Below are positions 37,346 to 63,505 of a stretch of DNA of 64,000 nucleotides, piece by piece. The stretch is taken from positions 29,937,395 through 30,001,394 of the forward strand of contig NC_135250.1 in the NCBI RefSeq assembly GCF_964204865.1, in the 5' to 3' direction. Origin of the DNA: Styela clava. Lineage: Eukaryota; Chordata; Ascidiacea; Stolidobranchia; Styelidae. Made by a program: the position numbers and the translations under genes. The notes beneath the pieces were generated by a model. It did not search any database. It worked only from the letters and a program-made list of their open reading frames with translations, and was not told the origin of the DNA. Positions within the stretch are counted from its first letter, which is position 1. Each line of letters starts with the position of its first letter.

Positions 37346-38864
37346 TCAAAGTTCGAAAATAAATCGAGAAACTAGCCCAATCAAATTATTTATAGCGGTC
37401 AAAGTAAGCAACCAACATACGAGATGTAGGAATGTATTTCGCCCTTTGTTATAGTGAGCCGCGATGAGCCAATTTATAAAAATGCCAAATCTCTCCCCTA
37501 GCGGCAATTCTATTCCCAAGAAATAGGCAAGAGGCGTCATTGTTATAACCAAAACGAAGTTCAATTTAGATTCGTATCTGAGACGAAGGTCGGCTGTGGG
37601 GGTGTTCACCAACGTAGTCCATGCACAAAACCAGACGGTGATGAGGTAAACCTTTACGAAATTGTAGGTCAACGAGATCAGCCACGGAATCCACCCCTTT
37701 TTCTAAAGGAAATACTCCATTTGAATACTGAGTAACCACGGAATAGTTCTTTACGGCCTATTAATAAATATATGTCAGAAGAAGTCGTGAAATGACTCAA
37801 CAACTATTTAGAAATGAAAGTATTCAACGCTCCTGAAGTATGTGCACCAAGATGGCGGACAGCATAACGTAGCATGTCTACCAGGTTAGGATAAGGCCAT
37901 AATTTGATTCAAATTTTCCTTACTTTAGTTCCTTACTTTAGTACTTTAGCAAATATAAATATATTGAAAGGCGTATACTAAGTATTCTTTATGCTTCGTG
38001 TTAGTACTATATATATATACAAGCCCTGTTAGGTCGTACTAAGCGTTCATACGTTCGTCACCGCACCTCAGATGATCCTGCGCGGGGTCGCAGGTTCGAA
38101 TCCCATGCGGGGATATTTATGTGCGAGAGGATTGCTGGACTCCTCGCCGCCTCGCTTTCTTTACCATCAGTTCCATTCTTTCGAAAAACAAATAACTAAC
38201 TAATCCCATATACCCGACATGGAATGGTAATCGGACGAGAGGCCGTGGTTCGCCATATGGTTAAGCCGTTTTATCGGTTTTCTTCTCTCCGGGATAAATT
38301 TTTAAATTCTATTTTATATTTCTTGTAGGCAACAACTGAATACCTGATCTTTTTCCTGAACATTGAGCAAACGGATAATTGTGTAATTAACTTGAATTGC
38401 ATCGTGATCATAAGATGTCTGGGAATAGTCAGTGTCATTACAAGCAGGACAATACGTTCTGAAAATAAAAATAGAAGGCGTATAACTATAATAAAACAAG
38501 AGAGTTATGCTCAAATATATGAACATGCGGAGGTCCTAACTTTTCCAGGTCCTGTGAGGATCATCAATTATTATCCATGATTGAGTAATACCAAGTTAAT
38601 ACCAACGGACCCGAGTCACTCTTATATTACCGATTAGGTACCAATGTCTAACGTTCCCCATAAAAAAACTTCCCACTTTTGCTAGTCATAAGCAACGATT
38701 TTTCCTTAACTGACAAAAATATGAAAATCCTACCCATCTGGTCCTACTTGCTCGAAAGTGCAAACTTTGCAAAAGGTGTGCTGGCATCGAAGCATTCGAG
38801 GTTCCCTCAGTCCAGTTGTTTCGAATCTTGTTTTACAAGAAGAGCAACTCAATATTTCATCCAT
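37346..38864 (-). CDS. RING-finger membrane protein, copy 1 (3 exons)
   Basis: Exons (minus) 38734-38864, 38344-38458 and 37346-37702 join in frame to 200 aa. The RING-HC ligands are C7, C10, C27, H29, C32 and C35 in exon 1 (CSSC ... CQHTFCKVC), then CPAC at 47-50 in exon 2, so the finger is split by intron 1. A linker TSYDHDAIQVNYTIIRLL follows, then exon 3 with hydrophobic stretches at about 93-112 (YNFVKVYLITVWFCAWTTL), 152-170 and 175-192. The conserved RYESK and MTPLAYFLG motifs lie between the first two. RING-HC domains recruit E2 enzymes; with membrane segments this predicts a membrane-anchored ubiquitin ligase. No B-box or coiled coil is seen. The start has A at -3 and G at +4. Intron 2 carries a SINE on the opposite strand, and intron 1 is mostly a family III fragment. 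The family is not one I can name. Confidence 0.78.
37829..37935. mobile_element. Family I MITE, half copy
   Basis: ACGCTCCTGAAGTATGTGCA, CAAGATGGCGGACAGC and GGTTAGGATAAGGCCATAAT, then it breaks off at TAGTTCC. Intron 2 of RING copy 1. Confidence 0.7.
38024..38320 (+). mobile_element. tRNA-derived SINE in intron 2 of RING copy 1
   Basis: Perfect GTCGCAGGTTCGAATCCCAT, GAGAGGATTGCTGGACTCCT, CATACCCGACATGGAATG-like body (shifted by TA) and CCGGGATAAATTTTTAAATT tail. It ends about 23 bp from the exon 2 donor. The tRNA-like head is eroded. Confidence 0.82.
38492..38733 (+). mobile_element. Family III fragment in intron 1 of RING copy 1
   Basis: AACAAGAGAGTTATGCTCAA then ATATATGAACATG, and further in AAAAAAACTTCCCACTTTTG, a phrase also in the copy at 8977-9190. 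It fills nearly the whole intron. Confidence 0.6.
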
Positions 38865-38899
38865 TCTTTATTTATCTATTCGGACAGAAATTAATTGCT
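38865..38899 (-). promoter_or_regulatory. Conserved leader with acceptor upstream of RING copy 1
   Basis: In gene orientation GATAG then CAATTAATTTCTG and AGATAAATAAAG, 33 nt from the putative AG to the start codon. Similarity to copies 2, 3 and 5 stops at the AG. Confidence 0.45.
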
Positions 38900-39097
38900 A
38901 TCAGTGATTCCAAACCAGAGGGGTAATTTTGGCAATTTTTACAGGGTAATCAGGACGGGGTCTCGTGCTGTTACATACCTGAATAACTTCTAGTTTGCGT
39001 GGCTAAACAATTATTGGATATATCATTCCTGACCCCCACCTGATTGCTTCATAAAAAAATTACGTCACTGCGACTGCAAAGTTACTGAATGGAATAC

Positions 39098-39313
39098 GGG
39101 TACTCCAGAAGTATGTATGTGAACCAAGATGTCGGACACCGGAACGTAGTATGTGTACCAAGTTAGGGTTAGGCCGTATGTTTTTACGGTTCGGGGGAGT
39201 TTGGGGACTAGCCAAGTGGCTCCTGTAGTATTTGTACCTGGAATTATGGCCTAACCTTGTACACATACTACGTTTTGGTGTCCGTCATCGTGGTTCACAT
39301 ACTTCGGGATTAC
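39098..39313. mobile_element. Family I MITE, long form, diverged
   Basis: GGGTACTCCAGAAGTATGTA with an ATGT duplication, CCAAGATGTCGGACACCGGA, GGACTAGCCAAGTGGCTCC and an end ATACTTCGGGATTAC. Confidence 0.78.
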
Positions 39314-39719
39314 TGTGAATTGTGCGTATGTATATACACGCTTGGTCTAATAAAGCGTCTCCTGAAGTGGGCAAAACGCCCCTTGGTGGGCGTTTTCGAT
39401 AACTGTACGATCACTGAAGAGAAATTGGGGGGCGCTGACTGTCGGATTGGGCAATTATAAATAAAGTTTTAAACTATTAACTTTAAAGGATAGAGTATTA
39501 AACTACACTAGTGATAAATAGAAAATAAATTTATTTCAAAGTTTTAGCTAGCGGGGAGGGGGGGGGGAGTTTATTAGTCAAAAAGTAATCCAGGAGAGAG
39601 TTGAGGAAAAAAAAATTGGGGAACATCGCTCTAATATGTGTCTACCTCCTAGCATTTCCCCCTATAGTTTCTGTTATATATATTATAAAGGGTGTTTCAA
39701 AAGTAATGCAAAATTAACA

Positions 39720-39945
39720 GAAGTTAAGATGAAATGCTACCAAAAACATTTAACGACAAACATCTTTTAACAGTATTGAATTACGGTGAAATGCCATTCT
39801 AAATATTTAACGAAAGACAACTTTTAGCACTATGGAATTACGGTGAAATGCCATTCTAAACATTTAACGACTGCCACTTTTTAACAGTATTGGAATACGA
39901 TAAAATGCCATTTAAACATTTTACGACTGACGCTTTTAACAGTTA
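39720..39945 (+). repeat. Short tandem array, about 57-60 bp period, 4 units
   Basis: Units contain ATGCCATTCTAAA(C/T)ATTTAACGA, then CTTTTAACAGTATTG and GAATACGGTGAAATGCC-like phrases, with drift between units. Confidence 0.75.
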
Positions 39946-39954
39946 CGTTCCTCT

Positions 39955-40215
39955 TTCCTCTTGGACAAAATGACCTTCATTCATCATTTTTTACTTTAAA
40001 CATACTTGCTGAACGCTAACATTTCAACGACTGATCGCGACTCGAATAATTTCGTACGCTAATGAACTGTTTGTAAGGAGCATAGCTCAGACACACTGGG
40101 TTTATTAATTAATATTTGACTCAATTATGCAACTGAATAAACAACGCTCGATACCGAGAAAATGCTCTCGCCTAATTTATTGGTTTTAACGATGGATATT
40201 GCTCGACCTTTGACC
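39955..40215 (+). repeat. Family V interspersed repeat, first of a direct pair
   Basis: ACCTTCATTCATCATTTTTT, ACTTGCTGAACGCTAAC, CGACTGATCGCGACTCGAAT, TTTATTAATTAATATTTGAC, TGAATAAACAACGCTCGATA and TCGACCTTTGACCCC. Repeated almost exactly at 40862-41125; related sequences at 47100-47300 and 51205-51400. Confidence 0.85.
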
Positions 40216-40861
40216 CCAGAAAAATTCTTCATATAGTTTAGGTTAGGTGTGTGCAACTCTTTATCGCAATGGGCCAAACAAAAAAAATGGTGACGCTGAG
40301 GGGCAGATAACACTTTTGAATACGAACTGTGGACTTCAATATGGGTGTGCATGCATGTACGCAAAAGTGCAAGTGCAAAAACGCACAGGAGTTATATATG
40401 TGAATTGTATTTATGCATATACACGCTTGCTTTAATATGTGTCTATCTCCTAGCTTTTTTCCCCTATAATTTCTAGTATATCGCAAGAGTGGTCAACCTT
40501 TTTTCGTCCGCTATCGACTAAAATCTTCCAAATAACTCGCGATCGACTGATTGGTTATAAGGTAATACACAAAAATGAACAGGTACTGAATATGCAGATA
40601 ACTGTACACACGCATACAAAAAATTCCACCGCTGCCAATAACCTCGGCATTGTGGCCACATTCCTGATTGAATAGACACAAAACTTTGTATTTTTCATGT
40701 TCCATTCATTTGTTAATCGTCCTGTTTTAAGACACTCAACAGGTGATACATGAAACGGATACGAGGCAATTTTGGAGGTATGTTGTTGAATTTACCAACA
40801 TCAGACGCGATCGACGTGTTGGCCACCCTTGATATAAAATATTTATATCTTTTTCCACCTC

Positions 40862-41125
40862 GACAAAATAACCTTCATTCATCATTTTTTACTTTGAACA
40901 TACTTGCTGAACGCTAACATTTCAACGACTGATCGCGACTCGAATAATTTCGTACACTAATGAACTGTTTGTAAAGAGCATAGCCCAGACACACTGGGTT
41001 TATTAATTAATATTTGACTCAATTATGCAATTGAATAAACAACGCTCGATACCGAGAAAATGCTCTCGCCTAATTGTTTAATTTTAACGATGAATTTTTT
41101 CTCGACCTTTGACCCCGGAATGATT
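40862..41125 (+). repeat. Family V interspersed repeat, second of a direct pair
   Basis: Same block order as 39955-40215 with few substitutions. Each copy is followed by GTGTGCAACT(C/T)TTTATCGCAATG and GGGCC, a hAT-like end, so the unit is probably part of a larger element. Confidence 0.85.
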
Positions 41126-41960
41126 CGTCCTGTAGTTTAGGGCAGGCGTGTGCAACTTTTTATCGCAATGGGCCAAAACGGAAAAATATGGTGGGACTGA
41201 GGGCCGGATCATCGAACAACCTATAGGTTTTGCAGCTACTCGAAGTTAAGCTAGCCAGTGCCCAACTGTAAGCTGATTCCGTCAGTTTTGAAATATATAC
41301 AGCTCACAGAAGCATTCGTGATGCCGAGAAAAGGACTACGCTTATGTTGACGCACCGGGAAAAACGTTTGAAACACTTTTTGTCTGCGCTAACCTTTCAA
41401 AGATTCAGTGGGTGTAGCCGGCGGTGAGAGTGTTTTTTTATAAACGGGTTCCCTTTGTATCAAACTTACAAACAACGGGTACTCCCATTCAGAAATATAT
41501 GTAACTCACTTGACATATATGACTCATATGTAACTTTACTCGACGAGTCTTGTATGTCGTACAATATATTATCACAATTCTACAATTTATAAAATAGAAT
41601 TAAAATTTATAATGGTAAAATGTAGACAAATATACATGGAATTAGCGTGGTCTATGAAAGTTTGAAAGCCACTCTAGTCACAAAAGTTGGAGTTGGCTTG
41701 GTCTGACTTCGGTCAGGCTATGGGAAAATGCGTTTATGGATGGAGCTTGTTAAATAAGAGAGAAAGAGAGAGATTTCGTTATCACAAACAATGTCAACAC
41801 AATGATACAATGTCACGTGTTTTTGTCAGCAACCAACAACAAACAAATATATAATTTTAACAATATTTGGTCGATTGTTATTTGTGAGGGTCGGTATACA
41901 AGATCGGTTAGGTCACCGTGCCTCTTGGCTCATAATAATATATAGTATGAGAACTAATTC
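41126..41960. other. Intergenic, no gene
   Basis: Contains the hAT-like phrase TGAGGGCCGGATCATCGAAC and a short GA-rich run near 41757-41772. Nothing else recognised. Confidence 0.45.
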
Positions 41961-42196
41961 GGTGCTCCCGAAGTATGCGAACCAAGATGGCGGACATCGG
42001 AACGTAACATGGGTAACAGGTTAGGTTTAGGCGATAATTTTTTTCCAATTTTCCCCATTTTAGTCCTATTATCAGTTCGAAGATTAGCCAAGAGCCTCCC
42101 GTAGTATTTATACCTAAAATTATGGCCTAACCCTAACCTAGTACACATATTACATTCCGATGGCCGCCATCTTGGTTCGCATACTTCAGGAGCCCC
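41961..42196. mobile_element. Family I MITE, 236 bp
   Basis: GGTGCTCCCGAAGTATGCGA to CATACTTCAGGAGCCCC, flanks ACTAATTC and ACTGATTC (one mismatch). Opposite orientation of the internal asymmetry to 6924-7159. Confidence 0.92.
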
Positions 42197-42419
42197 ACTG
42201 ATTCTTTTTTTGCATATATGTCCTCAAACAGATAAAATATACTTTTCTCGAACGTTGATTAAGATAAAAAGTAAAAACATAAATCAAATAGAAAAACAAA
42301 AAAATCATAAAATAAGAAAAATATATAGGAAGACTACAATCAAGGGAGGGCCATAGGGGCAGCTGCCTCGGTCAACACTCGGTTGTAGGGAGCAACATTC
42401 TAATTCCTAAATATGTAGG

Positions 42420-42840
42420 TTTGTTTTTGGACACGTCAGTGTACATAACGATCGTTTCAGTATTATGTTCTTGTTATTATTATTCTCTTTCGTCATGTTG
42501 AAATCGCTTTTCTCTTCGAATACTGGACCAATTGCTTTGAAATTTTCAGTGGTTAAAGATTGATTTTTTCGCCAGAAGAGAGATGGAGAGAGATAATGAT
42601 TTATTTCCGAATATATCAAAAAATGTAAAATTACAATAAATGGAAAAGAACAATTATAGAATATAATCGGGAGTGGGCGGGCAAGACTGCAAGGTCAACA
42701 ATGTCGACCGAACCCTAAAGGCTTGTACTTATTCCGAAAATTTCTGTGGACTTCAGGAGATTCGTTTTTTATGTGTCAGAATAAAAAATAGCGACACCTT
42801 GTTACGTGTCCATATATTTGAGCACAGCTCTCTTGTTTCT
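42420..42840 (-). mobile_element. Family III element, minus strand, interrupted
   Basis: GGACACGTCAGTGTACATAA then CGATCGTTTCAG, CTTTTCTCTTCGAATACTGG, ACCAATTGCTTTGAAATTTT and GATTGATTTTTTCGCCAGAA, with the other end ACGTGTCCATATATTTGAGC then ACAGCTCTCTTGTT at 42803-42837. Confidence 0.65.
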
Positions 42841-42997
42841 AGTTTGGAGGTTTTATCCAGGGGCATGCAACCTCTAATACAGGAGGGCCAGTTACAAATG
42901 ACTTGGAGAAACCGCGGGCCGCACTTTTAATAAACATGGGCCATCTAGTAGTTTTAGACACAAAAAATGTTGATTACATGGAGGGCTCGAAAGAAAT

Positions 42998-43385
42998 TTG
43001 ATAAAAAAACAAGAGAGCTACGCCCAAATATATGGACACGTCTGTTCGCAGTACCATACGGTTTACCGTACCGTCAGATCACAGTCTACAAATATATTCA
43101 CAGTCAGACACAAAATAGCGTCCGATGTCCGCAGAACGTTCAGTGACGTCATAGCAAACAAAAACAAATTTCACAGAGCTAACAGAAATACCTGAAATAA
43201 AAAAAAGTAATGGCCTTCTGAAGAAAAATTTTATCTTCAACCACTGAAATTTTCGAAGCAATTGGTCCAGTGATCAAAGACAGAAGCGGTTATTTTATTA
43301 TTTCCACTAGGTGCCCAAAAAGTGTCCAAGAACAACAAGAACAACAAAACGATCGTTATGTCCACTAAACGTGTCCAAAAATAGA
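42998..43385 (+). mobile_element. Family III element, near complete
   Basis: AACAAGAGAGCTACGCCCAA then ATATATGGACACGT; TCCGCAGAACGTTCAGTGAC; GTCATAGCAAACAAAAAC; TGGCCTTCTGAAG; CAACCACTGAAATTTTCG; GCAATTGGTCCAGTGATC; and the close CGATCGTTATGTCCACTAAA then CGTGTCC. Confidence 0.75.
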
Positions 43386-43441
43386 AAATAGCTTTCCAGC
43401 GGCTTTCCAATTCAAATGCGCTGAAAATTCGAAATACATTA

Positions 43442-43936: not shown

Positions 43937-46466
43937 TTAGGGTCTTCCGAACAAATACCTATCGAACTCATCTGAAACTGAAACAAAAAGAAACCAAAAT
44001 ACGAAATTTTGCAAAGACGGCCACATGTTAATTATGTTAGCCGACAAGCTCCAAAATATAAAAACAAGAACCATTTCAAACTCCGGAAGTTGCATACCCA
44101 AATAATAGGCAAAAGGCATTTTCGACATTTCATAAATAAAATCCCATTTCGATTCGTATTTGCGCAGGAGGTTGTTTGTAGTTGTGATCTTCAATGTGCG
44201 ATACATGCAAAGCCAGACTGTGATGAGATAAATCTTTACGATATTGAAAGCCAAGGGTCGCAGCCATGGAACTCTCTTATCCTATAAAAAAATATACTTC
44301 ATTTTGAATTCAGTACTAAGATAGACAGTAAGCAGGTCATTTTTTTCAAGCAGTAATTACGAGAAATTGATGATTTACAGTTTTACCGGGGAAGGGGAGG
44401 ATATATCACTACGGCCTATAATAGATAAGATAACTTTATTTCGACTCCATAATCAGCATAAAAGGCGATAAGGTAATTGATAAAAAAATAAAAACTTATT
44501 TTGAAATCAGACTATGTGCCGTGATTGTATACACAGCTGTCTTATTGACTATAACTGCTTCAAGTCTCGTGCCAATCTGGCAATACAAATTCCTAATTCA
44601 TTTAACGTATGTTTTATGTACGTTGAGAAGATAAACAACTGATTACTAGGGCTGGGCATTTTCGAATACCTGATGATTTCAGAATCGAATCGAATATTTT
44701 TTTCGAATCGAATCTCGTAACTTTCCTATTATATTAGGTCCTCCAGACACATAAATCACTGAAACATAGAGTGCGTCACTAAGGCAGATTGCTGAGCGTT
44801 CCACACACAATAAAAAACGTCTTCAACTTGTCTTTTTTTTAATAAAACATACTTTCGCCTTGCTATCTGTTATTTATAGCCTATTTATAGCCTGGGGGCG
44901 CAGCATGAAAAGTTTGAGAACCACTGTCCTAGGACCCTTGATAATAAAGTCAATTGTATATTGTATAGACAACGGTTGAATACCTGTTCTTTCTTCTGTG
45001 CAACGAGAAAACGGACAATCGTATAATTAACTTGAATTGCTTCGTGGTCATGAGATGTCACGAAAGGATCGATTACATTACAAACTGGACAATACGTGCT
45101 GAAAAAAGACGTCGATTGAAAGTAATTCAAACCATAATAATAAAAAATGATAAGGAAAGGGCAATGTCCAATACATGGACACAGAAAGAGGGGGCTAAAA
45201 AGCTCGGCAGTGTGGCGCATCGTGCTAAGTGTTCACAATATGCTCGCCCCCGCGCCTCTGATTACCTTGAGTAGTTCCGCAGGTTCGAATCCCATGCGGT
45301 GATAGTTCTGTGCGAGAGGATTGCTGGACTCCTCGCCGCCGCAGGCTTGTTCGCGTAACCAAACCTAACATTTTCATCCTAACCACAGCATAAATATAGT
45401 TTCGAATATTGCTCGGGGATGGTAGTTTAATCATAAACACAGGCTTGTCAATTGAAACGCCCCGTGGGATGCTATGGGACAGCTCAAATTTGTACTTCCC
45501 ATGGGACACGTGGGACACAAAGTAACGTATGACTTTGGTGTATCGATGGTAAAACATTGGTTATGGATATCGTGTCGTGTCCATATATTTGAGCATAACT
45601 ATCTTGATAGTTATGAAGTGCAAATATATTAGCATTAGAAATACTTTGTGGGGTAATGGTCACATGTATATTAGTTATGAATTTAAAGTTGTCAAGGTCA
45701 ATAAATTTTGTTGTTTCGCATATCTCTTTGTACATGTTGTCCTATTTAGCAAACGCTAAACCTAAATTTAACAATTTTTATTGAATTGCATTCCATGTGA
45801 TTGGATTCCATGTGATTGGATGTGACAGGCATAAATTGTTATCGGATGGGACAGAAAAAGGCGCTCCGGAAGTATTCGTACTATGATGACGCACAACCTG
45901 AACCCTGAACTGGTACACATACATTGTTCAGGTTGTGCGCCATCTTGGTACGAATACTTCGGGAGCACCTAGAAAAATATGTTCCACGGACAAGCCTGTA
46001 CAAACCTATTGTCGAAAAACCGCCACCCCAAACCACATTTTTGTGGCTTGTTGTTTTTATTAATTTTTCGGGATAGGGCGCTCCAGAAGTATGTGCCCGA
46101 AGATGGCGGACATCGAAACGTAGTATGTGTACCAGGTTAGGGCTAGGCCAAAATTTTATTCCAATTTTCCTTATTTTAGTGTTATTACTGGTTCGGGGAC
46201 TAGCCAAGTGACTCCCGTAGTATTTGTACCTGAAATTATGCTCTAACCCTAATCCGGTACACATACTACGTTCCGGTGTCCGCCATCTAGGTGCACATAT
46301 TTCTGGAGTACCCGGGAAAAATATGAAAATCCTACCCAGCTGGCCCAATTTGCTCGAGGGTGCAAACTTTGCAAAAGTTGTGTTGGCATCGAAGCATCCG
46401 AGGTTCCTTCAGTCCAGTTGTTTCAAATTTCGATCGACAAGAAGAACAGTTCAATATTACATCCAT
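43937..46466 (-). CDS. RING-finger membrane protein, copy 2 (3 exons)
   Basis: Exons (minus) 46336-46466, 44984-45098 and 43937-44281 give 196 aa in frame with GT-AG introns. The RING ligands are CSSC (7, 10), C27, H29, C32, C35 (CQHNFCKVC) and CPVC (47-50); His at 29 is the single RING histidine. The linker HDHEAIQVNYTIVRFLVAQ is followed by hydrophobic segments at about 93-112 (FNIVKIYLITVWLCMYRTL), 151-169 (EMVLVFIFWSLSANIINMW) and 172-185. Between them lie RKYESKWDF and EMSKMPFAYYLG, the most conserved part of exon 3. It ends DRYLFGRP. This is the cleanest member of the copy 1/2/4 clade and a good reference for the family. Intron 1 (1.2 kb) holds a SINE, a family III end and two family I MITEs. 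Predicted membrane-bound E3 ligase; activity is inferred from the RING only. Confidence 0.82.
44640..44935. mobile_element. MITE remnants in intron 2 of RING copy 2
   Basis: Left part TAGGGCTGGGCATTTTCGAA and GAATCGAATCGAATATTTTT matches 59213-59542. Right part AAAAGTTTGAGAACCACTG is a hAT-like end. They overlap the intron boundary region but no exon. Confidence 0.6.
45202..45360 (+). mobile_element. tRNA-derived SINE, 3'-truncated, in intron 1 of RING copy 2
   Basis: GCTCGGCAGTGTGGCGCATC, CCGCAGGTTCGAATCCCATG and AGAGGATTGCTGGACTCCTC, then it stops at CGCGTAACC. Confidence 0.85.
45860..45969. mobile_element. Family I MITE, short form (110 bp)
   Basis: GGCGCTCCGGAAGTATTCGT to CGAATACTTCGGGAGCACC, flanks CAGAAAAA and TAGAAAAA. 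Both ends share the TATTCGTAC variant, so they were homogenised or share a recent ancestor. Confidence 0.9.
46077..46313. mobile_element. Family I MITE, long form
   Basis: GGCGCTCCAGAAGTATGTGC, GAAGATGGCGGACATCGAAA, GGACTAGCCAAGTGACTCCC and ATATTTCTGGAGTACC. Its right end is 23 bp from the exon 1 donor of RING copy 2. Confidence 0.85.
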
Positions 46467-48402: not shown

Positions 48403-50305
48403 CTATCTTGGGAAAAGTTTGTAATAACCTCTAATTATAATCAAACCCCATGAAAAATTTACAAAAATAATCAAACAAGCCTTCCAAAAGGGAAGAGATG
48501 AAAAGTTCAAAATAGTCCTTTTCACAGTTGGCCATATACAACTTTGAATTGCACTCCCAAAGTACCAAAAAACAATAACACTATCCCACTCGTCCTCAGA
48601 CATTTCTGCTACGATGAAATGTGCAAACGGTCTTTTTGACATTTCCCAAGCGAAATTCCCCATTGACTTGAATCTCAACTCAAGGTAGAAAAGTGTTGAG
48701 TTATTCAACGTGTGGATAGTCCAAAGTATGACGTTAATAATGTAGAGCGTTACGAAATACTATATTTCCGTCCTGCAAAAAAAAATTTAAATTAAAAACT
48801 CGATGCAACTATACAATTTACAATTTGGTACGCCTCTAGTATTTGAACCAATATGGCGGACACCGGAACGTAGTATGTGTACCAGGTTAGGGGTAGGCCA
48901 TAATTTCAGGTACAAATACTACGGGAGTCACTTGGCTAGTCCACGAACTCGTAATATAACTAAAAAAGTAAAATTGGAATAAAATTAGGGATTAACCCTA
49001 ACCTGGTACACATACTACGTTCCGGTGTCCGCCATCTTGATTCACATGCTACGGGAGTACTCACAAAGTTTGCTGGGATTTATTCGCAACTAATGGAACT
49101 TTCAATTTCGAATTATCAGCACTTACAAATGGGAAAACCACAATTTACAATTTGGTACGCCTCTAGTATTTGGACCAAGATGACGGACACCGGAATGTAG
49201 TATGTGTGCCAGGTTAGGGTTAGGCTATAATTTTATTCCAATTTTTCCTTTTTTAGTTCTATTACGAGTTCGGGGACTAGCCAAGTGACTCCCGTAGTAT
49301 TTGTACCTGAAATTATGGCTTAACCCTAACATGGTACACATACTACCTTCCGGTGTCCGCCATCTTGGTTCACATAGCTCGGGAGTACCAAATTTTCAAA
49401 TAAGATAAATGAAAACTACCTCTTTCTCATGAGCTCTGAGAAAAGGGATAATTGTATTATTCCTTTGAATTTTGCCAGGAGATGTTTCCGAATGATGAAC
49501 TTCATTGCAGACTGGACACATTGCTCTACAAAAACCATATATATATATATATATAATAGTATATTATGCAGTTCAAGAGTCCTGCTGCACACTGATACAA
49601 TTGTATTTCTGATACGTTTTGTTTGACCATTCTTCTTTTCTTGTCATTGTTGTAAACTGCTTATCTGAGGAAGTCTGATTTTGGTTAGTCGAAAGGTTAC
49701 AGAAATATATTTGTGTTAGTGTGCAGCGAGACTCTTGAATCACTTAGGATAGTTGTGTTCACTCTTGCTACAGCATCCTTGCATTATACGCATACGGATA
49801 CACCGTCGCAAAAGCATAGAGGAAGGATAAGTAGTTAGTCTCGCAGAAACCCAATCGATCAAGTGCAGTTTCAAATATTTTGTGGAATTGTGGAGTCTGC
49901 CTTGGAGTACCACGTCAGCAAAATTGAAAACCAAAGGCGGGTAAAATATGGCTGCCGTAACCACAGCATGTCGGCTGTAATGGTAGGGGCTGCACTTATG
50001 GTGAAAAATATTGGGTAAGTAGGAACATTTTTCTTATGGATACAGTTTTGATGGATTTTGGGTTTGGTTTCAGGTTTAAGTAATTATAATTCCGCATGAT
50101 AAACTAAAATCTGGTGCATGACTTTGTGAATATACCTTTGTGATACTCATACCCGCGATAGACACTCTATTTACCTATACGGCCCTATCAAGTCCTCAAT
50201 ACATCTCCTGCAAAATGTGTGCTGACATGAAAGCATCAGCGGTTCTTTCGGTCCAGTTGTTTCGAATTTCGATCGACAAGAAGAGCACTTCAATAATTCA
50301 TCCAT
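48403..50305 (-). CDS. RING-finger membrane protein, copy 3 (3 exons)
   Basis: Exons (minus) 50175-50305, 49420-49525 and 48403-48759 give 197 aa. The RING has CSSC (7, 10), CQHTFCRRC (27-35) and CPVC (47-50). The linker differs from copies 1, 2 and 4: TSPGKIQRNNTIIPFLRA. Exon 3 has hydrophobic runs at its start (YFVTLYIINVILWTIHTL), middle (SVIVFWYFGSAIQSCIW) and end (FWKACLIIFVNFSWGLII), and conserved RFKSMGNFAWEMSKRPFAHF. The acceptor of exon 3 is a choice: the AG at 48773-48774, at the family position, would hit a stop after 12 codons, while the AG at 48760-48761 (ATATAG) keeps the frame. I chose the latter; it has a weak pyrimidine tract, so the copy may be impaired. It forms a clade with copy 5. 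Intron 2 contains two family I MITEs. Confidence 0.7.
48827..49062. mobile_element. Family I MITE, 236 bp, first of a close pair
   Basis: GGTACGCCTCTAGTATTTGA, CCAATATGGCGGACACCGGA, ACGGGAGTCACTTGGCTAGT and CATGCTACGGGAGTACT. The left flank CAATTTACAATTT is the same as for the next copy at 49154. Confidence 0.85.
49154..49389. mobile_element. Family I MITE, 236 bp, second of a close pair
   Basis: GGTACGCCTCTAGTATTTGG to CACATAGCTCGGGAGTACC, internal GGACTAGCCAAGTGACTCCC (opposite orientation to the first). Both members carry the unusual CGCCTCTAGTATTTG end. No matching target duplication is visible, so the pair may come from local duplication or inversion. Confidence 0.85.
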
Positions 50306-51630: not shown

Positions 51631-51631
51631 G

Positions 51632-54093: not shown

Positions 54094-57000
54094 ATGGATG
54101 AAGTACTGAAGTGCACTACTTGTGAAACGAAATTCGGACCAACTGGACTGAAACAACCTCGAATGCTTCGATGCCAGCACACATTTTGTAAAGTCTGCAC
54201 ATTCGAGCTAATAAAACCATATGGGTAGGTTTTTCATGCCGCTTTATATTTTTATTATGAATAATTATCCCCGTCCTCCCACTAAAAAATCATCAAAGTA
54301 ATCACCCAGTTGAGGTGAGGGTTAGAGTTGGAAATGATTCGATATTTGCAATTCTATCGCAATCTGCATTCGTAACCCTAACCCAGACCTTAACTGATTA
54401 ATATGAGTTTTCATATATTAGCGAGGCGGGGATAACTTGAATATTATTGGACACGTTGGTGGATTTAATATTATGTTGTTGTTGTTGTTACTTATCGATC
54501 TCAATCGGTGAGTATGTTGATAGGTATTTGTCTGTCTGTTTGTTACTTATCGATCTCGATCGGTAAGTATGTTGATAGATAATTGTCTGTTTGTCTGTTA
54601 GACACATTCATATGTTACGCGATATCTCACGAAAGCGAGGTTGAATCTGCTCCAAATTTTGTACATCATATCTCGGACCAGAAGCGTATCATATCGTATT
54701 ATATCGTATAATTAGCGAGTTATTAATTAATTAGTGATGGGACACGCGGTGTCGCTATTGAGCCAGAGCGAAGGAACCGAAACAGCAGTTTCAGAAGATC
54801 GATAAGTCGGCGGTCTCCGATCTGTATTTAGTTCTTATCCTTGTTCTTGTTCTTTGACACGGAATTTCATCGTTATGAAAAAGTCGCTTTTCTTTTTGAT
54901 TACTGGACCAATTTGAAATTTTCAGTTGTTGAAGTTGGGTTTTTTCTCTAGAAGGCTATTACTTTCATTTATTTCTAAATTTCGTATTAAATCTGATAGT
55001 TCGTTCAAAATTTCGTTGTGTTATTTCATCCATGGGAACACTGGTTGTACGGGTTGATACTGTAAATTCTTGCTACGCGAAACTCTGAATTTTTTTGAGG
55101 GTACCGGTAGCGTCAAGAGTAAGAACTACTTCGCTCTGGTTAACATGTCCAAATATTTGAGCATTGCTCTCTTGTTTAGCATAGGTATATTATTTCTTTT
55201 AGTTTTTATTACATTGAATCGACGTACTTTTTTTTTTTACAGAACGTATTGTCCGGTTTGTAATAAAACCGATCATTCTGTGACATCTTATGATCACGAT
55301 GCAATTCAAGTTAATTATACAATTATCCGTTTTCTCGATGCTCAGAGGAAAGAACAGGTATTCAACTGTTGCCTACACAAAATATACTTTACTTTAGGGG
55401 TGTGCAACCTTTAATACCGGAGAGCCAGATACAAATAACTGGGTGAAATCAAGCCCCATCTTTATTTAACATAGGTTTTCTAGTGGTTGTATACACAAAA
55501 AATTATGACATGCGTTGATTGCTTCACACAAGCTTAGCTTTTGGGGCAGCTATTCCCAAATTTTTTGGTCGTGCGACGCCAAATTATCAGGGAAAAAACT
55601 CATGGCAAGCTTACACGAAAAAAATACAATACGTAACAAAAAGTAAACGACATAGAACGGTAAAATGAATTCATTGATTAACATATTTATAAAACATTTA
55701 TAATAAATACAAATATTATAATATTCAATTAATATTATTTATGTTCTACACAATTCTGTTAATTTTCGGGGCGCACTTAGCAATTCCCATCCTTCGAGAA
55801 TCGCTATGTTAGGACATTGTAACATCATAGGCATAGATGATAAATTGGACTCAGGTATAATTTGCAACGCCTAAGGGTTGGAATTGATCGCACATACCAG
55901 ATTGAACTGAACTAAAATTTCGTTTTTTGAGCCCCCAATTTTTTCTTTGTGGCCCGCGTTTGGCCCGCGGGACGCAGGTTGCACACCCCTGTTCTACTTC
56001 ATTATAGGAAACCAATAACATTACTAACCCTTTATGTCACGCACAATTTTTTTGGCTTTTGGATATCGTTAGGCTCGTCCGCGGGATTTGGGATCGCTGT
56101 TGAAATCTCATGAGAAACGTCCCACGGAAGGGGATGGGATAGCATACATTTGATTTCCCATTGGACACGTAGGACACAAATACCGCATGATTTTTCTTGT
56201 TAGTTTTAAAGAGCAAAATATATTCAGCCTTAACAACAGACTCCGTGAATGGGCTGATGGTCACATGTATAACAGATATGAATATAAAGTTAACAAAGTC
56301 CGAAAATATTGTTGTTTTGCATGTCTCTTCGTAGATGTATTCCTATTTAGTGGACGATAAACCTAAATTTAACAATTTTCATTGAATTATATTCCAATGG
56401 AATGGGAATGGGACAAAAAAATATGTTCCATGGACAAGCCTGGCAATAGGGCTTGGCATAGTAAATTATCCGAATTAGTTCGGACGAAAATTTCGAATCG
56501 TCGCCATTTTGTTTTGTTTTTACCCGCCAAAGGTTCGAGGTGAATTAATTTTTTAATTTTTAATATGCAATCCTGACATACGATTTTTTTCTTCCTAGTG
56601 AGTTATTGAAAATATTTTTTTTTATTGTGTGTTTACATTCAGCGAACTGCTTGAGTGGTGGATTTTATATTTTAGTAATTCATGAGTTGAGAGAACCCAT
56701 TACAATTAAAAATCACCTACAATTACATATCTTTTGAATCAGTGGTTCTCAAACTTTTTAGACCGCGCCTCCTTTTTAGAATTTGTCAAGTTTCGCGCCT
56801 CATCTCAAAAATAACTAGCTTTATAGGGTGCTCCCGAAGTATGCGAACCAAGATGGCGGACATCGGAACGTAACATGGGTAACAGGTTAGGGTTAGTCGA
56901 TAATTTCTTTCCAATTTTCCCTATTTTAGTCCTATTATCAGTTCGAAGACTAGCCAAGAGCCTCCCGTAGTATTTATACCTAAAATTATGGCCTAACCCT

Positions 57001-57554
57001 GACCTAGTACACATATTACATTTCGATGTCCGCCATCTTGGTTCGCATACTTCGGGAGCCCCCTTTATAGGCTTTAAAAATCTATCGTTACTCAGTATTT
57101 AATATGAAATATTTTTCAGGAAAATCAAAGGCTACTTTCTCTAATCTTCAATATCGTAAGGATTTATTTCATCAACGTCTGGATTTGGACGTGCGCTGAA
57201 GTGGCTTTTACACCCCCAGAACACTTTTATAGCAGATACGAGTCTAAATTTGGATTTGTTTGGAAAATGACAAGAATGCCGTTGGCATATTGCTTTGAAA
57301 TACAATTGTCGGGAAAAGAGGTGGCGCTCGTTATTTTATATTGGATCTTTGCGGTTAACGTTAACAACATGAGGCCAGTTTTCCGAAATTTCACGTTGTT
57401 GGTTCTATATTTCTGCATTTCACCAAAATTATCTGCGTATTTGTTCGATTACTTTTGGATCTTTGACTCAACATTTTTCCATCGCAGGATTGCTTCCGGA
57501 AATATACGAAAAAAATATTTCCTCACTTCTTGTGGACATACATACATACATTGA
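54094..57554 (+). CDS. RING-finger membrane protein, copy 4 (3 exons)
   Basis: Exons 54094-54224, 55243-55357 and 57120-57554 give 226 aa. The RING ligands are CTTC (7, 10), CQHTFCKVC (27-35) and CPVC (47-50), then the linker TSYDHDAIQVNYTIIRFLDA, identical in most positions to copies 1 and 2. Exon 3 carries FNIVRIYFINVWIWTC, RYESKFGFVWKMTRMPLAY and ALVILYWIFAVNVNNM. Relative to copy 2 (ending YLFGRP) the reading frame runs on past the family stop into about 30 further residues (from FWIFDSTFF to GHTYIH), encoded by sequence that lies 3' of the stop in copies 1 and 2. This is the only copy on the plus strand. The start codon context is AAACCATGG. Introns are swollen by a family III/MITE composite (intron 1) and by hAT and family I elements (intron 2, 1.76 kb). 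Predicted membrane E3 ligase; expression unproven because the upstream block shared by copies 2, 3 and 5 is missing. Confidence 0.8.
54455..55176 (-). mobile_element. Family III element with a nested TIR element, RING copy 4 intron 1
   Basis: The outer parts are TTGGACACGTTGGTGGATTT on the left and, from 54885, GAAAAAGTCGCTTTTC, GATTACTGGACCAATTTGAA, TGTCCAAATATTTGAGCATT and GCTCTCTTGTTT. Inside, 54489-54815 is bounded by ACTTATCGATCT and AGATCGATAAGT and starts with a roughly 60-bp unit (TTACTTATCGATCTCRATCG) repeated twice. Confidence 0.7.
55396..55990 (+). mobile_element. hAT-like element in intron 2 of RING copy 4
   Basis: GGGGTGTGCAACCTTTAATA left and CAGGTTGCACACCCCTG right, TGGCCCGCGTTTGGCCCGCG inside the right end. 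The longest version of this family here (about 595 bp). Confidence 0.82.
56827..57062. mobile_element. Family I MITE, 236 bp, inside a hAT fragment
   Basis: Perfect CTTTATAG duplication (56819-56826 and 57063-57070), ends GGTGCTCCCGAAGTATGCGA and CGCATACTTCGGGAGCCCC. Its right end is 57 bp before exon 3 of RING copy 4. Confidence 0.95.
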
Positions 57555-58081
57555 AGGGGGGTTGCAACTCCACATGGGAGCGCACAACGAATTTTATGTG
57601 TCGCAAAAAGTACACCAACATATCAAAAATATCGATTGTACTTTTTTGGACTCTTGCTCCGAATGACACAATTATTAAAACTATTGCGAAACACTAATCT
57701 CACGATTTTGAGAGAATACGTGGGAGCAGAGAGGCGCCACGCTTGCATAAAATGCCGACCTAGCGGGGGTCGCAGGTAGTTTTTTCGCGTGAAAGTTTGG
57801 GAATCTTGCTCATGCTTTATTGCAATCCTTGTAACGTTATTCAATAAATTCTATCCATAAATGCACGTGCTTATAGCCAGAACAGCGTCGTTGGTCTGAG
57901 GCCACTGTATGCAGGGAGACCCGCTAATTCTAAGCGTAATTTATTAAATTTTGACATTTCAAATTGTATTCTTGTATAATTTTGATCATATTGCATGACT
58001 TCACAACAAATAGGGCTTGTTAAGTAAAATTAGTCAATCCTTTATACCCAAATGAAAAGTAACAGAAAATTAAAAAATTTT
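57555..58081. other. 3' flank of RING copy 4
   Basis: No gene. A phrase at 57697-57760 (CACGATTTTGAGAGAATACG, GCTTGCATAAAATGCCGAC) resembles 30660-30720 downstream of Rab39, so it is probably a repeat. Confidence 0.45.
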
Positions 58082-58193
58082 GACCTCCAGAAGTATGTGC
58101 ACCAAGATGGCGCATAACCTGAACATAGTATGTGTACCAGGTTGGGTTCAGATTGTGTGTGCGCCATCTTGGTGCACATACTTTTGGAGCACC
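58082..58193. mobile_element. Family I MITE, short form (112 bp)
   Basis: GACCTCCAGAAGTATGTGCA, CAAGATGGCGCATAACCTGA, CGCCATCTTGGTGCACATAC and TTTTGGAGCACC. Confidence 0.88.
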
Positions 58194-58398
58194 AAACTTT
58201 TTGACCCCAGACTTTTTATAAAGATTTTTGAGGTCAAAAAATCTCCCACAAAAATTGAGCAAACGTTGTTTATGACCTGTTGAATTTTCGTCATCAAAAT
58301 TTGTTTTTCTCATCGTCCGAGCTAGAGTTTTACAACCCGGAGTTGGGATAGATCGTGAATTTTCTGTGTCTCCATTGCCCTGTTTGACTGTTTAGAAC

Positions 58399-59162
58399 AG
58401 AAGTTTGCAACAGGCGACCCGCGGGCCACAGCCCGCCCTGCCCAGCCATTTAGTGTGGCCCCTGTCAGCATTCAGCTTTACCTCATCAAGCATAAAATCC
58501 TAATCCTATATATATATATTTAAAACAGCGCTTACCGTATTTGCTCGTTTTGTAGCCCGGGCCCATATATTTCTTAACCAAACTCACTAATCGGGCCCTT
58601 ATTCAAACCGGCCCTTATTCAAGCACGGGCGCTTGTTATTTTTAAAGTAAAATTATACACAAAATATATTGTCATTTCCAGTTCTCAAGTATGATTTAAA
58701 CGAGAATAACGAAAATTTTGACTTTTGGACGCCTAAGGCGTGAGTGTTATCTACCAGCGCTTAAAATTCAACAGCGTTGTGACAAAAGCGCTTCTTATTT
58801 CCTATTGTTCTCTACCACTGAAAAATCAGCTTTTACATCAGGCGGGTATTCAAGCACCGGCCCTTATTTATTTTTATGTCCTGTTCACACGGGCGGCCAT
58901 TCCAACGGGCCCTTAATTAAGATCGGGCGGTAAAACAAGCATATACGTACGTATATACATGGCATATACATGAATAAAAACACATTATGTTTTTTTCTCT
59001 TGTCGCTTCGTTAATTAAATCTTTCCCAGTTTTGCCCGGTGGAATTATTACTGTAAGGCTGAACGATAACCGCATGCTGTCGTCTTCTTGTCTCTCCCAC
59101 AAAATATTTGTGTCTGAAGTTGTTTATATGGCCCACTAACAGAGCATTCTGCACATCCCTGG
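58399..59162. mobile_element. hAT-like element with a nested palindrome
   Basis: Starts AGAAGTTTGCAACAGGCGAC and CCCGCGGGCCACAGCCCGCC; the end is GAGCATTCTGCACATCCCTG. Inside, 58552-58925 is a second element made of inverted CGGGCCCTTATTCAA, CGGCCCTTATTCAAGC and CCCTTAATTAAGATCGGGC blocks. Confidence 0.65.
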
Positions 59163-59212
59163 ATTATAATCTAAACTGTGAGGTGTTTTACCGACGTCCC
59201 ACGGGCCACAAC

Positions 59213-59542
59213 TAGGGCTGGGCACTCCGAATCGAATATTCGAATAGTATATTATTCGAATCAGTTCAGAGCAAAATTTCGAATCGCCGCTATCTTGTTG
59301 TTTTCTTTCCGCCAATTTTCTGTAGTGAGTTATTGATAAAAAAGTGTTTTTCATTGTGTGTGAATTAAGAATTTATTCATGTTTTCAGTAATACATTTGT
59401 TGACAGGACCAATTACAGTGAAATAGTAGCATATAATAACATATCTCTCATTGACTCCCAAGTATTCGAGATTCGATTCGACTCGAAAAAAATATTCGAT
59501 TCGATTCTGAAATCATCAGGTATATGAAAATGCCCAGCCCTA
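59213..59542. mobile_element. MITE with TAGGGCTGGGCA ends (330 bp)
   Basis: Perfect GCCACAAC duplication (59205-59212 and 59543-59550); ends TAGGGCTGGGCACTCCGAAT and GAAAATGCCCAGCCCTA; AT-rich interior with ATTCGATTCG repeats. It interrupts a hAT-like remnant whose halves are ACGTCCCACGGG and CCCGGCCCGGCAAGCC. Confidence 0.93.
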
Positions 59543-59890
59543 GCCACAACCCGGCCCGGCAAGCCATTTTGTGCGGCCCTTGTCAACACTCCGAATTTTC
59601 GTTCAAGCATAAAATCCTAATTCTATAGGCAATTTTTGAAAAGGCGCTTACATGGATAAAAATACACAATGTTTTTTTCTCTTGTCGCTGTGTTAAATCT
59701 TTCGCTGGTATGCCCGATGGAATTATTACTCTGAGGCTAAGCAATAGCCGCATTCTCTTTGGTTGCCTTTCTCGCTTAATGTTTGGAATCTTCGCCCGTC
59801 TGTTTGACGAGTGGTGAGTAATCGGGGCTTCTGTTTCAGAAGCACAAGAATTTGTTATTTATATTTTCCAATTTTATACCACAACCTTTT

Positions 59891-61600
59891 TTTAAAATCC
59901 TGGCTCACACCTAACTGGTTAATATTATACTCGACATGATCTGGTAACCGAACGAGATTGAAGGGTTCACCATAGGCTTGCACGTAATTGACAAAAATCA
60001 ATTCCGTAATTACGGCCAAATCGATTACGTAATGACCCCGTAATTGCGATATTTTATTCACACTTTTAAACCTATCATAACAACCAATTTAATCCACTTC
60101 TATTCCGAATGGGACATCGACAGTTGGGACAGTTTGGTTTTCATATTTCCGCCAGTACTACACGCCGGCGACAGATGCTAAAGACAAATATCAAGGAGTG
60201 AATTCAAATTAATTTTATTCTGATTTTTATCTTTTGTGTTAGCTTTGATTTTCCTTTATCAACTTTATCACCCAATTTTATGCGATCAATTTTATCATTA
60301 CCAACACTGGTTAGTGGTAATATATTTATGAAACGAAAGTTGACTTTTTTTAAATCGTATTAACGTATTAATACGAGTTTCGTATTAAATAAAAATTCCG
60401 GGTTTCTAATTTATAAATCTCGTTTGATTATACTTGCGCTTGCCTCGCAACGAAGACTTGTTATTGTACCGTTTTTTTACATTATCCGACTTTACTACCT
60501 AGTTAGCATTTTATAATAATTATTGATGCCGACTTATTGACGATATTCCGATTACCATGCTTCATTTTACATAAAATCATTTGGCGGCCTAAATGTTATA
60601 ACATTATTTGCGCATAATTTAAATACCGTACTTATATGACATGCCTTCTCCGAAAATACAAAGTTATATCGCAAAACAATGCATTTGGTGACATTTATTT
60701 TGCACTCTCGAAAATATTAATTTACTTTTCTAACTCAAGTCGACAATCCTATCGGCTAAGATTGACACAAGTTTGGTCGAGTGCCGGTGGTATTTGAGTC
60801 GACGATAAATCAAAATAAGTTGCCGCATTTGGTAAAGACTTAAAGATATTGTAAAGACATATTTGGCCGAAATAGTGCGAGGCATTGTGAAAACAAGGCC
60901 AAGTCCGGACAGATATATAACGATAAAAGCGGTAACAGAACATCAAGATTTTGTAATAGAAAATGGATCTCGCGCAGAATGAACATGGGAATCCCGACTT
61001 TTTGTTGTTTCTCTGCCGTCTGAATCGCTTTACCGATGCCGAAAAGACTAAGTTGCGTTGGTTCATTACGCAATTTCTCTTCCGTCGTCATATTGCTGTT
61101 TGATAAGCGCGACATTAATTATCACGGCATTTACAAATAGACCATGTTTGGTAAGTTGTCTCTTACATTCTTTAGTCATTTCACCCGAAGAAGTTGAAAC
61201 CAGGTGTGTTGGCGTCCATCGGTCTCAACACAATTCTATCCCATATCTACGCTTAATATGTACATTTGCCATGCTAGATAAGTTGATAATAGGTTAGTAA
61301 ATGGCAACGCGTTATGCCTTCTCCATCTGCGTAACAAGAGAGATAAAAACGGCTGCGAATACCGGAACTCTAACTTCTTCTACCGATTAAACTTTAATTT
61401 TTTACAATCGGCTGCTCTAAAGAGAGCTCGTTTCAATCGCGAAAGCGCTCCACCAATAATTACGAATTTACGTAATTCGTAACTTCGCTTCCGTAACTCG
61501 AAATAATTCCGTAATTCCGTAAATCCGTAAATTACGTGCAAGCCTAGTTCACCATATGATTAATTCATCTTGTCTACTTTCCTGTCCTCCTGAATTAATA
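59891..61600 (+). mobile_element. SINE 3' part split by a 1.57 kb insertion
   Basis: TCACACCTAACTGGTTAATA, CTCGACATGATCTGGTAACC and GAACGAGATTGAAGG lie left of the insertion; GTTCACCATATGATTAATTC and ATCTTGTCTACTTTCCTGTC continue to its right, joining into the usual SINE body. Confidence 0.8.
59973..61546. mobile_element. hAT-like element with TAGGCTTGCACGTAATT ends (1,574 bp)
   Basis: Perfect GTTCACCA duplication (59965-59972 and 61547-61554). Ends TAGGCTTGCACGTAATT and AATTACGTGCAAGCCTA; subterminal CGTAATTACG-type repeats on both sides. Minus-strand open frames at 60749-61115 are short and interrupted; no transposase domain is recognisable. Confidence 0.9.
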
Positions 61601-62254
61601 AATAAAATTCGGAATCCTAATGAATAGGTGAATATATTATCAAAACCACAAAAATAAATTTTAAAAACACGCAAAATATAATGATATAATACAGATACTA
61701 CTACTAATATATATGCCGTGGTGTAAGAAAATTGCTGAGTGCAGTATATCAACATCTACAGTATGTTCTCTTGCCTTTCCATTTGAGGGTCAGGGCGAAA
61801 GTATTTCGAAATTTGAGGGGTTTTAATTACTTTTCTATTGGCGATAAAACTATTTGTAACCTACGCGTTATGTATTTGACAGACAATCTACACTTATAAA
61901 TATGCCATATTCTATATTTCTAGAATACAATTATACTTGAGTTAGAAATTACAGTGTGGTATCACACATGGGGGGGGGGGGCACATTTGGCTCACCAGGC
62001 GTAGGTTGCACACCGCTGCTTTACGTTATTATGAGCTTGAATAAGAAGAATAGGAAAGAATAAGTGAAAAAAGATTTATCAGAATCTTGGGCCCATGTGC
62101 GGATAATGGACCTGGATGATATTTTGACACATTGCTATTGCTAATTAGACACTCTGTATTTTTTTAGAAGCTTGTGTGAATCTGCAACTAAATTAAATAT
62201 CCCCCAAATAGTTCAATAAGTTATGTCCAGGACAAAGTTACCTGATGGAATACG
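61601..62254. other. Intergenic, no gene
   Basis: A hAT-like right end lies near 61970-62025 after a G10 run (GGCTCACCAGGCGTAGGTTG, CACACCGCTGC). Otherwise unassigned. Confidence 0.45.
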
Positions 62255-62491
62255 GGTACTCCCGAAGTATGTGAACCAAGTCCGGCGGACACCGGAACCT
62301 AGTATTTGTACCAAGTTAGGGTTAGGCCATAATTTTATTCCAATTATCCTTATTTTAGTTCTATTACAGGTTCAAAGACTAGCCAAGTTACTCCCATAGT
62401 ATTTGTAACTAAAATTATAGCCTAACCCTAACCTGGTACACCTACTACGTTCCGGTGTCCGCCATCTTGGTTCACATACTTCGGGAGTACC
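62255..62491. mobile_element. Family I MITE, 237 bp, next to the stop of RING copy 5
   Basis: Perfect GGAATACG duplication (62247-62254 and 62492-62499). Ends GGTACTCCCGAAGTATGTGA and CATACTTCGGGAGTACC. The right duplication ends 3 bp from the stop codon of copy 5 (62502-62504). Confidence 0.94.
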
Positions 62492-62501
62492 GGAATACGA
62501 T

Positions 62502-63505
62502 CTACTTTGGGAAAAGTTTGGAACAACTCACTATTAAACCAAAACCCCATACAAAATTTACAATAATAACCCCACAAGCCTTCCAACAGGGTAGAGACCA
62601 GAAGTTTAAAACAGTCTTTTTTACAGTTGGCCAAATGTAACTATAAATTGTAAGAGCAAGGAACCAAAAAGCGAAAATACAACCCGATTCGTCTTCAGAC
62701 ATTTCTGGTTCGGGGAAAAACGCAAGCGGTTTCTGAACATTTTCCAAAGAAATTTTGCCACTGATTTATATCTGAGCTTCAGGTAAAATGGCGTTGAGTG
62801 ATTTATTGTACGAATGATCCAAAGCAATACATTGATAAAATAGAATGTTGTGAGGTCCTCAACTATATTTGGTTTCTGAAAAAAAAAAATACCTAATCAT
62901 AAGTTCAACAATTTCACATTGTACACGTGGCTCTTTCTATTAAATTCTGGTTGCGATTTACTTAGCAACTAATGAACTAATCTAAAGATTAGGATGGATC
63001 GTAAATGATGAGAGGCCCCTAGTGTTCCCGGCCCCTAGTGTTCCCGGCCCGGGTTGTCTTATCGGCTCCCCTCTCCCAAGAATACATATGATAATTGTTT
63101 TTAGGTGGACAGTTTTTAAATAATATGAATGAAAACAACTACCTGAGCATCAAGCAACCGGATAATTGTATTATTCATTTGAATTTCTCCAGAAGGTGTT
63201 GCCGGACGATGAACTTTGCGACAGACTGGACATATTACTCTGTAAAAATGATATGATAGTAGTTTGAAAGAAAATTCGTTTTCACGTTTTTTGGTGTTTT
63301 TTATGGTTTTTGGATGTTTTTTCACGTGTTTGCAAGATTTTCTGTGGCTTTTGACAGTTTTTGGTGGTACTTACTCATACGGTTCTATTATATCACCAAT
63401 GCAACCCCTGCAAAACGTGTGCTGACACGGAAGCATTCTCGGTTCTCTCGGCCCAGTTGTTTCAAATCTTGTTTGACAAGAAGAGCACTTTAATATTTCA
63501 TCCAT
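62502..63505 (-). pseudogene. RING-finger membrane protein, copy 5, frameshifted
   Basis: Exons (minus) 63375-63505, 63143-63239 and 62502-62875. The RING is intact: CSSC (7, 10), CQHTFCRGC (27-35), CPVC (47-50), with linker TPSGEIQMNNTIIRLLDAQ and good GTAAGT and GTAGTT donors. Exon 3 starts KPNIVEDLTTFYFINVLLW and matches copy 3 through LRYKSVAKFLWKM. It then loses the family frame near 62725-62735, where 8 bases stand in for 9 in copy 3. The family frame resumes as KPLAFF, EMSEDES and FWKAC-like CWKACGVIIVNFVWG to the stop. In the shifted frame translation ends at 62621, giving about 160 aa that keep the RING and the first hydrophobic segment. Shortest introns of the five (135 and 267 bp), so probably close to the ancestral layout. 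Either a recent pseudogene, a truncated ligase, or a sequencing error. Confidence 0.72.

Follow-up and report, generated by a model that had tools for sequence, protein, structure and literature searches.

Five split-RING genes lie in one window of the Styela clava genome

We analyzed a 64,000-nucleotide stretch of the Styela clava genome (C1:29937395-30001394; here, the window) that contains a local group of genes encoding a RING domain split between two exons, followed by a hydrophobic last exon. Five three-exon loci (A to E) were located by splice-site inspection at window positions 37346-63505, with A, B, C, and E on the minus strand and D on the plus strand. All five have GT donors and AG acceptors, with the first intron in phase 2 and the second in phase 0. 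In each locus, exon 1 (131 bp) starts at the ATG, breaks off after the second base of a codon, and encodes RING ligands 1 to 6. Exon 2 measures 115, 115, 106, 115, and 97 bp in A to E, respectively, begins just before a CPxC motif, and ends in phase 0. These two exons are thus as the initial annotation, a reading of the letters alone, had described them (a 131-bp first exon with six RING ligands and a second of 97 to 115 bp opening with CPxC). The last exon, exon 3, is 118 codons long in A, 114 in B, and 144 in D. Proteins of the cluster are approximately 190 to 225 amino acids long. Copy-to-copy tblastn matches were well above chance (A-B exon 1, E = 6e-21; A-B exon 3, E = 2.5e-18).

Gene A is read from exon 1 (38734..38864; start codon and ligands 1 to 6) through exon 2 (38344..38458; CPAC, with ligands 7 and 8, and a post-RING stretch) to a hydrophobic C-terminal exon ending in a stop codon (37346..37702). 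Its spliced protein scores 25.3 bits against PF00097 (cut-off, 21). Gene B has the same arrangement (exon 1 with ligands 1 to 6, 46336..46466; exon 2 with CPVC, 44984..45098; hydrophobic C-terminal exon 3 and stop, 43937..44281), as does gene D on the opposite strand (ligands 1 to 6, 54094..54224; CPVC, 55243..55357; hydrophobic exon, 57120..57554). In gene C, ligands 1 to 6 (50175..50305) and CPVC (49420..49525) are encoded as in the other copies, and exon 3 (48403..48759) is reached only through a poor acceptor (ATATAG). If the better acceptor, TTTTTTTTTGCAG, were used, exon 3 would start at 48772 and run for 12 codons before a stop; a frame of 118 codons is available only from the poor AG, which lies 13 nt farther downstream (exon from 48759) and has pyrimidines at 7 of the 18 positions preceding it. 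In gene E, exon 1 (63375..63505; ligands 1 to 6) and exon 2 (63143..63239; CPVC) precede an exon 3 (62505..62875) that is broken in this assembly by a frame change near 62740; the frame from the acceptor ends at a stop after 84 codons. Therefore, three of the five window copies are clean. The single three-exon plan first proposed for all five loci stands for their presence, exon sizes, and intron phases; it is weakened by the poor acceptor in C and the frameshifted exon 3 in E.

Two further sequence elements accompany these genes. A conserved ATAGCA resembling a splice acceptor lies approximately 40 to 45 nt upstream of the ATG in A, B, C, and E; in B, C, and E, the bases before it are rich in T. 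The element may signal an intron in the 5' leader or a site of spliced-leader addition; trans-splicing occurs in ascidians. An interspersed repeat with inverted halves and a core like AACCAAGATGGCGGACACCGGAACGTAGTATGTGTACCAGGTTAGGGTTAGG has copies inside the introns of B, C, and D (examples in the window are at 41961-42196, 46077-46312, 49154-49389, 56827-57062, and 62256-62491).

The cluster comprises nine genes and matches only S. clava proteins

Genome-wide searches (376.6 Mb covered) with C, P0005, and P0004 (the latter two being database proteins described below), together with local tblastn, extended the cluster past the right edge of the window as far as C1:30021766. Four additional copies lie there, each with a 131-bp exon 1, intron phases 2 and 0, and an open exon 3: F (C1:30006169-30003863, minus strand; exon 2, 115 bp), G (C1:30009012-30011159, plus strand; exon 2, 97 bp; matching P0005), H (C1:30014494-30016840, plus strand; exon 2, 133 bp; matching P0003), and I (C1:30020254-30021766, plus strand; exon 2, 133 bp). 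Exon 3 of I begins at C1:30021377, after a TTTTAG acceptor. The local expansion of compact genes combining a RING with hydrophobic segments is thus supported, with an earlier count of five copies within 26 kb giving way to nine genes over approximately 47 kb. Seven of the nine are clean (A, B, and D in the window plus F to I).

Of 94 candidates from a protein search with gene A, three reached E ≤ 1, and each is an uncharacterized S. clava protein: P0001 (LOC120334811), P0002 (LOC120334799), and P0003 (LOC120334794). A first profile search (A1) added P0004 (LOC120334795) and P0005 (LOC120335053), for five proteins at E ≤ 1 (1,300 candidates), and a second (A3) gave the identical five at E ≤ 10 (1,049 candidates). 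No non-Styela protein appeared in either search at these thresholds; such searches need shared 5-residue words, and E-values were scaled to 5.8 billion sequences. All five proteins carry annotation in uniref/nr. P0001 is the counterpart of gene A (98% identity across 77% of A; 3 of 154 residues differ), and P0002 is that of D (7 of 192 residues differ), which extends 34 codons past the P0002 end. P0005 differs from G at 5 of 207 residues. The genome search found no close copy of P0004 in the assembly (top exon 3 identity, 62%); therefore, either the copy is absent here or the allele is very different. We found no published account of this family in the titles and abstract openings of the literature on the Styela clava genome and its gene families, ascidian TRIM/RING expansions, and Styela ubiquitin/RING proteins.

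The RING is of the C3HC4 class

The eight-ligand C3HC4 pattern (tested as C-x2-C-x(n)-C-x-H-x2-C-x2-C-x(n)-C-x2-C) is present in all nine cluster copies and in P0001 to P0005. The PF00097 gathering score was reached by all five window copies (spliced A to D; exons 1 and 2 only for E), consistent with the RING-HC consensus that had been recognized at the outset. With C as the query, the top solved relative was the TRIM32 RING (5fey_A; E = 5.9e-6), the alignment extending into the post-RING stretch; the RINGs of TRIM2 and TRIM3 were also among the top solved relatives. Judging from these comparisons, the cluster RING is a genuine C3HC4 domain, probably closest to TRIM32-type RINGs. Unlike the TRIM proteins, the cluster genes continue into a hydrophobic exon; Pfam found no NHL repeat, nor any B-box in spliced A to D or P0003 to P0005.

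Exon 3 encodes hydrophobic segments and fits no known family

A WW-octanol scan (threshold, -4 kcal/mol or better), which is not a trained topology predictor, located hydrophobic segments behind the RING: three per protein in A to D, where A and D have additional weaker ones, and four per protein in P0003 to P0005. The motif assigned to this exon by the initial annotation, (R/K)YESK...MPxAY, is less general than proposed: (R/K)YESK with PxAY occurs in A, B, and D, which is three of the nine copies (for E, exons 1 and 2 were searched). Literal MPxAY is found in B and D, and A has MTPLAY. The counterparts are RFKSM...RPFAH in C and RYKSV...KPLAF in E.

The inability to place exon 3 in a known family persisted in every search made. 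Pfam returned zero families at E ≤ 10 for four exon 3 sequences and nothing at a meaningful level for seven members (best E, 0.48). A profile search of the PDB gave one chain at chance level, and the predicted structure of C exon 3 (pLDDT 75, moderate) had no outstanding fold match. The missing match is no proof of a new fold. In the genome, exon 3 matches at E ≤ 1e-3 were confined to the C1 cluster (queries C, P0005, P0004, and B exon 3; the search scores its best candidates only and is not exhaustive). On the searches made, the exon 3 family appears to be restricted to S. clava.

We also compared the cluster with described membrane RING proteins. RNF183-family proteins are approximately 200 amino acids long, similar in size to those of the cluster. 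PMC7313026 describes the family (RNF183, RNF186, RNF182, and RNF152) as having an N-terminal C3HC4 RING followed by C-terminal membrane segments, an order that the cluster proteins share. In contrast to the RNF183 family, which has one or two membrane segments, the cluster has three or four hydrophobic segments, as well as a phase-2 intron splitting the RING, Ser or Thr at the contact for the ubiquitin-conjugating enzyme (E2), and a tandem expansion. No sequence link to RNF183, RNF186, RNF182, or RNF152 was found among the 5-residue-word profile hits at E ≤ 1 (A1) or E ≤ 10 (A3). DUF1232, a feature of RNF170, was absent from the Pfam matches for four exon 3 sequences at E ≤ 10, and neither it nor RINGv was among the Pfam matches listed. 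Ligand order speaks against membership in MARCH, being C3HC4 here and C4HC3 in the RING-CH domain.

Exon 3 evolves more rapidly than the RING exons

Evolutionary rates were compared by the Nei-Gojobori ratio of nonsynonymous to synonymous change (dN/dS, or omega) in the 28 pairs formed by the eight copies having an exon 3 frame; pairs share branches and are not independent. In this comparison, exon 3 of I was begun one codon late, and that of D was shortened to 330 bases (the P0002 end), as it was for the hydropathy analysis and neutral simulation described below. Among A to D, omega was 0.36 to 0.59 for exons 1+2 and 0.58 to 1.04 for exon 3 (the longer D gave nearly equal values). Over a wider set (A to D, G-H, and G-I), exons 1+2 gave 0.30 to 0.59. 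Exon 3 omega exceeded exon 1+2 omega in all 17 pairs in which both were defined; the other 11 of the 28 were undefined because of dS saturation. H-I was the cleanest pair (0.17 for exons 1+2 versus 0.77 for exon 3; 294 of 300 bootstraps agreed in direction). Pairwise dS between cluster copies ranged from about 0.2 to above 1, and gene conversion could be an alternative source of the lower dS in exons 1 and 2 of some pairs.

In a neutral simulation at 0.25 changes per site (an assumed, not fitted, value; indels were not counted), exon 3 remained without a stop with a probability of 0.044 to 0.064 per copy for A to D. The product for the four open frames was approximately 6e-6, which includes C in its poor-acceptor frame, or approximately 1e-4 without C. 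The open exon 3 frames are therefore unlikely to be a neutral leftover. A lack of transcripts from every copy combined with a dN/dS near 1 across copies had been named beforehand as a result that would speak against the family, and on the dN/dS part the outcome is mixed: exon 3 omega among A to D reaches 1.04, yet the open frames outlast the neutral simulation. Fast exon 3 change under some constraint would fit relaxed and diversifying selection alike.

The split RING is shared with gene groups on other contigs

A search with a C8 RING returned three loci on C8, six on C10, and one on C6, besides the C1 cluster and weaker matches. In all 10 loci, a phase-2 GT site terminates exon 1 after ligand 6. 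At all three C8 loci and all six C10 loci, a CPxC exon lies no more than a few kilobases downstream; no second exon was found at the C6 locus. This same phase-2 cut on three further contigs makes the split RING a wider module, of which the cluster is one user, rather than the hallmark of the family that it had been taken to be; the two groups whose ends were seen end differently.

The C8 group (C8:1.82-1.84 Mb) resembles the cluster in having intron phases 2 and 0 and one membrane-rich last exon, which was seen behind exon 2 in two of the three loci (39% identical to each other). In contrast to the cluster, this exon is longer (about 200 amino acids); it had zero Pfam matches above the cut-off, and profile comparison, with thin profiles, detected no relation to C1 exon 3. 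The C10 group (C10:6.61-6.68 Mb; at least six genes) has its RING cut in phase 2 at the identical place, and in the one gene examined the following intron is in phase 0. Unlike the cluster, the C10 copies compared run on into additional downstream exons that are shared between copies, two of which have a weak ZER1-like repeat match (PF22964; E = 3.6e-6, 0.7 bit under the cut-off, and E = 0.023, also under it). RING identity between C8 and the cluster is 26 to 44% over exons 1 and 2, and a small unrooted tree of exons 1+2 separated C8 and C10 from the C1 copies (support, 1.000; some inner branches were weak). A TRIM-type gene on C2, with a B-box-like stretch recognized by eye, has its RING within one exon.

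Other features of the window

A 42-bp minisatellite (window 618-2150; approximately 36 copies, 83% matches; further rows from 453) contains long stop-free frames on each strand, producing spurious open reading frames of the LLNRYFGFGLWFVI type. Positions 27192-27566 of the plus strand hold an exon from a gene for a Rab/Ras-type GTPase (PF00071; E = 3.4e-15). A weak match to glycosyltransferase family 17 was seen at 60752-61087 on the minus strand (PF04724; E = 0.0046, below the cut-off).

Interpretation of the cluster

We favor the reading, with a probability of roughly 0.6, that the cluster is a new lineage-specific, diversifying tandem family of membrane RING proteins acting through ubiquitin on membrane partners. 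Many of the membrane RING proteins described to date are members of ancient, conserved families. Here, an ancestral two-exon RING module, also used on C8, C10, and C6, would have been joined at a phase-0 intron to a membrane exon, and the resulting gene would then have multiplied to nine copies. If the genes are spliced in life as modeled, the N-terminal RING encoded by exons 1 and 2 would face the cytosol, and the three or four hydrophobic segments of exon 3 would anchor the protein in the membrane and choose its partner or target. The protein would most likely direct ubiquitylation to membrane partners, either acting as a ligase whose E2 preference has changed or contributing one RING to a pair. 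Its membrane exon may be diversifying quickly, as is seen in recognition or conflict genes.

Several observations weigh against this reading, and a first group concerns the RING. The hydrophobic E2 contact of a RING-type ubiquitin ligase (E3) was not found: position C1+2 of the RING is Ser in A, B, C, E, G, H, and I and Thr in D, and F has Phe. The linchpin position (the residue after ligand 8) is Asn in A to D, Arg in E, H, and I, and Gln in F and G. According to PMC9910797, the matching residue of BRCA1, Ile26, defines the E2 site, and an I26A change abolishes activity in vitro. All 10 loci examined on C8, C10, and C6 have Ile or Val there (Ile kept in the C8 genes, Val in the C10 genes), and loss of the contact residue is therefore a feature of this cluster. 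With Ser or Thr in eight of nine RINGs, standard E3 action is uncertain and ligase activity is not to be assumed, so the label of E3 ligase originally given to these genes was not borne out. These residues, in RINGs that keep all eight zinc ligands, are also what an alternative would predict, in which the proteins are pseudo-ligases whose RINGs keep zinc and dimerize but engage no usual E2, serving as membrane adaptors or as dominant-negative partners of, for example, the C8, C10, or C6 split-RING proteins. We regard this as possible but doubtful: the proline in the CPxC loop, which also commonly contacts the E2, is retained in all nine copies, some RINGs are active without the canonical residue, and exons 1 and 2 are still constrained, with omega falling to 0.17 for H-I.

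A second group of observations concerns constraint. C and E appear damaged. Exon 3 hydropathy is weakly kept, with changes milder than neutral at the 5% level in two of six pairs and a smoothed hydropathy profile that beats neutral in one of six. Among the 17 pairs with faster exon 3 change, only H-I exceeds 95% of bootstraps (A-B is next, with 282 of 300), several have dS above 1, and shared branches link them. The damage in C and E and the weakly kept hydropathy, together with the exon 3 omega among A to D, would suit decaying tandem relics without present function, their open frames being left by recent duplication. Such an explanation is improbable, however, given seven clean copies despite pairwise dS of up to more than 1, the low simulated chance that all four exon 3 frames would stay open at the assumed rate, the constrained RING exons, and the five annotated family proteins.

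Other observations bear on exon 3 itself. The full-length model is poor (pLDDT 54). A true member, A exon 3, scored just E = 0.83 with C as the query; therefore, distant copies could be missed. One exon 3-like stretch lies outside the cluster, approximately 0.77 Mb to its left (C1:29203883-29204104; E = 0.014 and 31% identity with C as the query). It contains two stops and may be a relic or a chance match. Assignment of the genes, as divergent members, to an already described family of membrane RINGs (RNF183/186/182/152, RNF170, or MARCH) is very improbable, the shared domain order and similar size of the RNF183 family being outweighed by its fewer membrane segments, by the Pfam results for DUF1232 and RINGv, and by profile searches whose length range is expected to span RNF183-type sizes and which matched only Styela proteins.

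A role in recognition or conflict is a guess from the pace of change, the copy differences, and the broken copies, and the cluster has no direct tie to immunity. A broader proposal is that the two-exon RING cassette is a plug-in module feeding at least three unrelated C termini, with the C1 branch forming a copy-variable recognition or conflict system (host-microbe or self-nonself) whose RINGs were retuned off the standard E2 contact; we consider this speculative and rather unlikely.

Returning to the favored reading of a lineage-specific family of membrane RING proteins, the combination of a constrained RING, a fast-changing hydrophobic domain that matches no known family, and sister groups on other contigs would clearly illustrate the reuse, at the level of exons, of a ligase module by a chordate. 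The cluster would also offer a convenient way to ask whether RING families lacking the standard E2 contact can act as ligases. Should the copy differences between individuals prove real, it would in addition be a candidate tunicate recognition locus.

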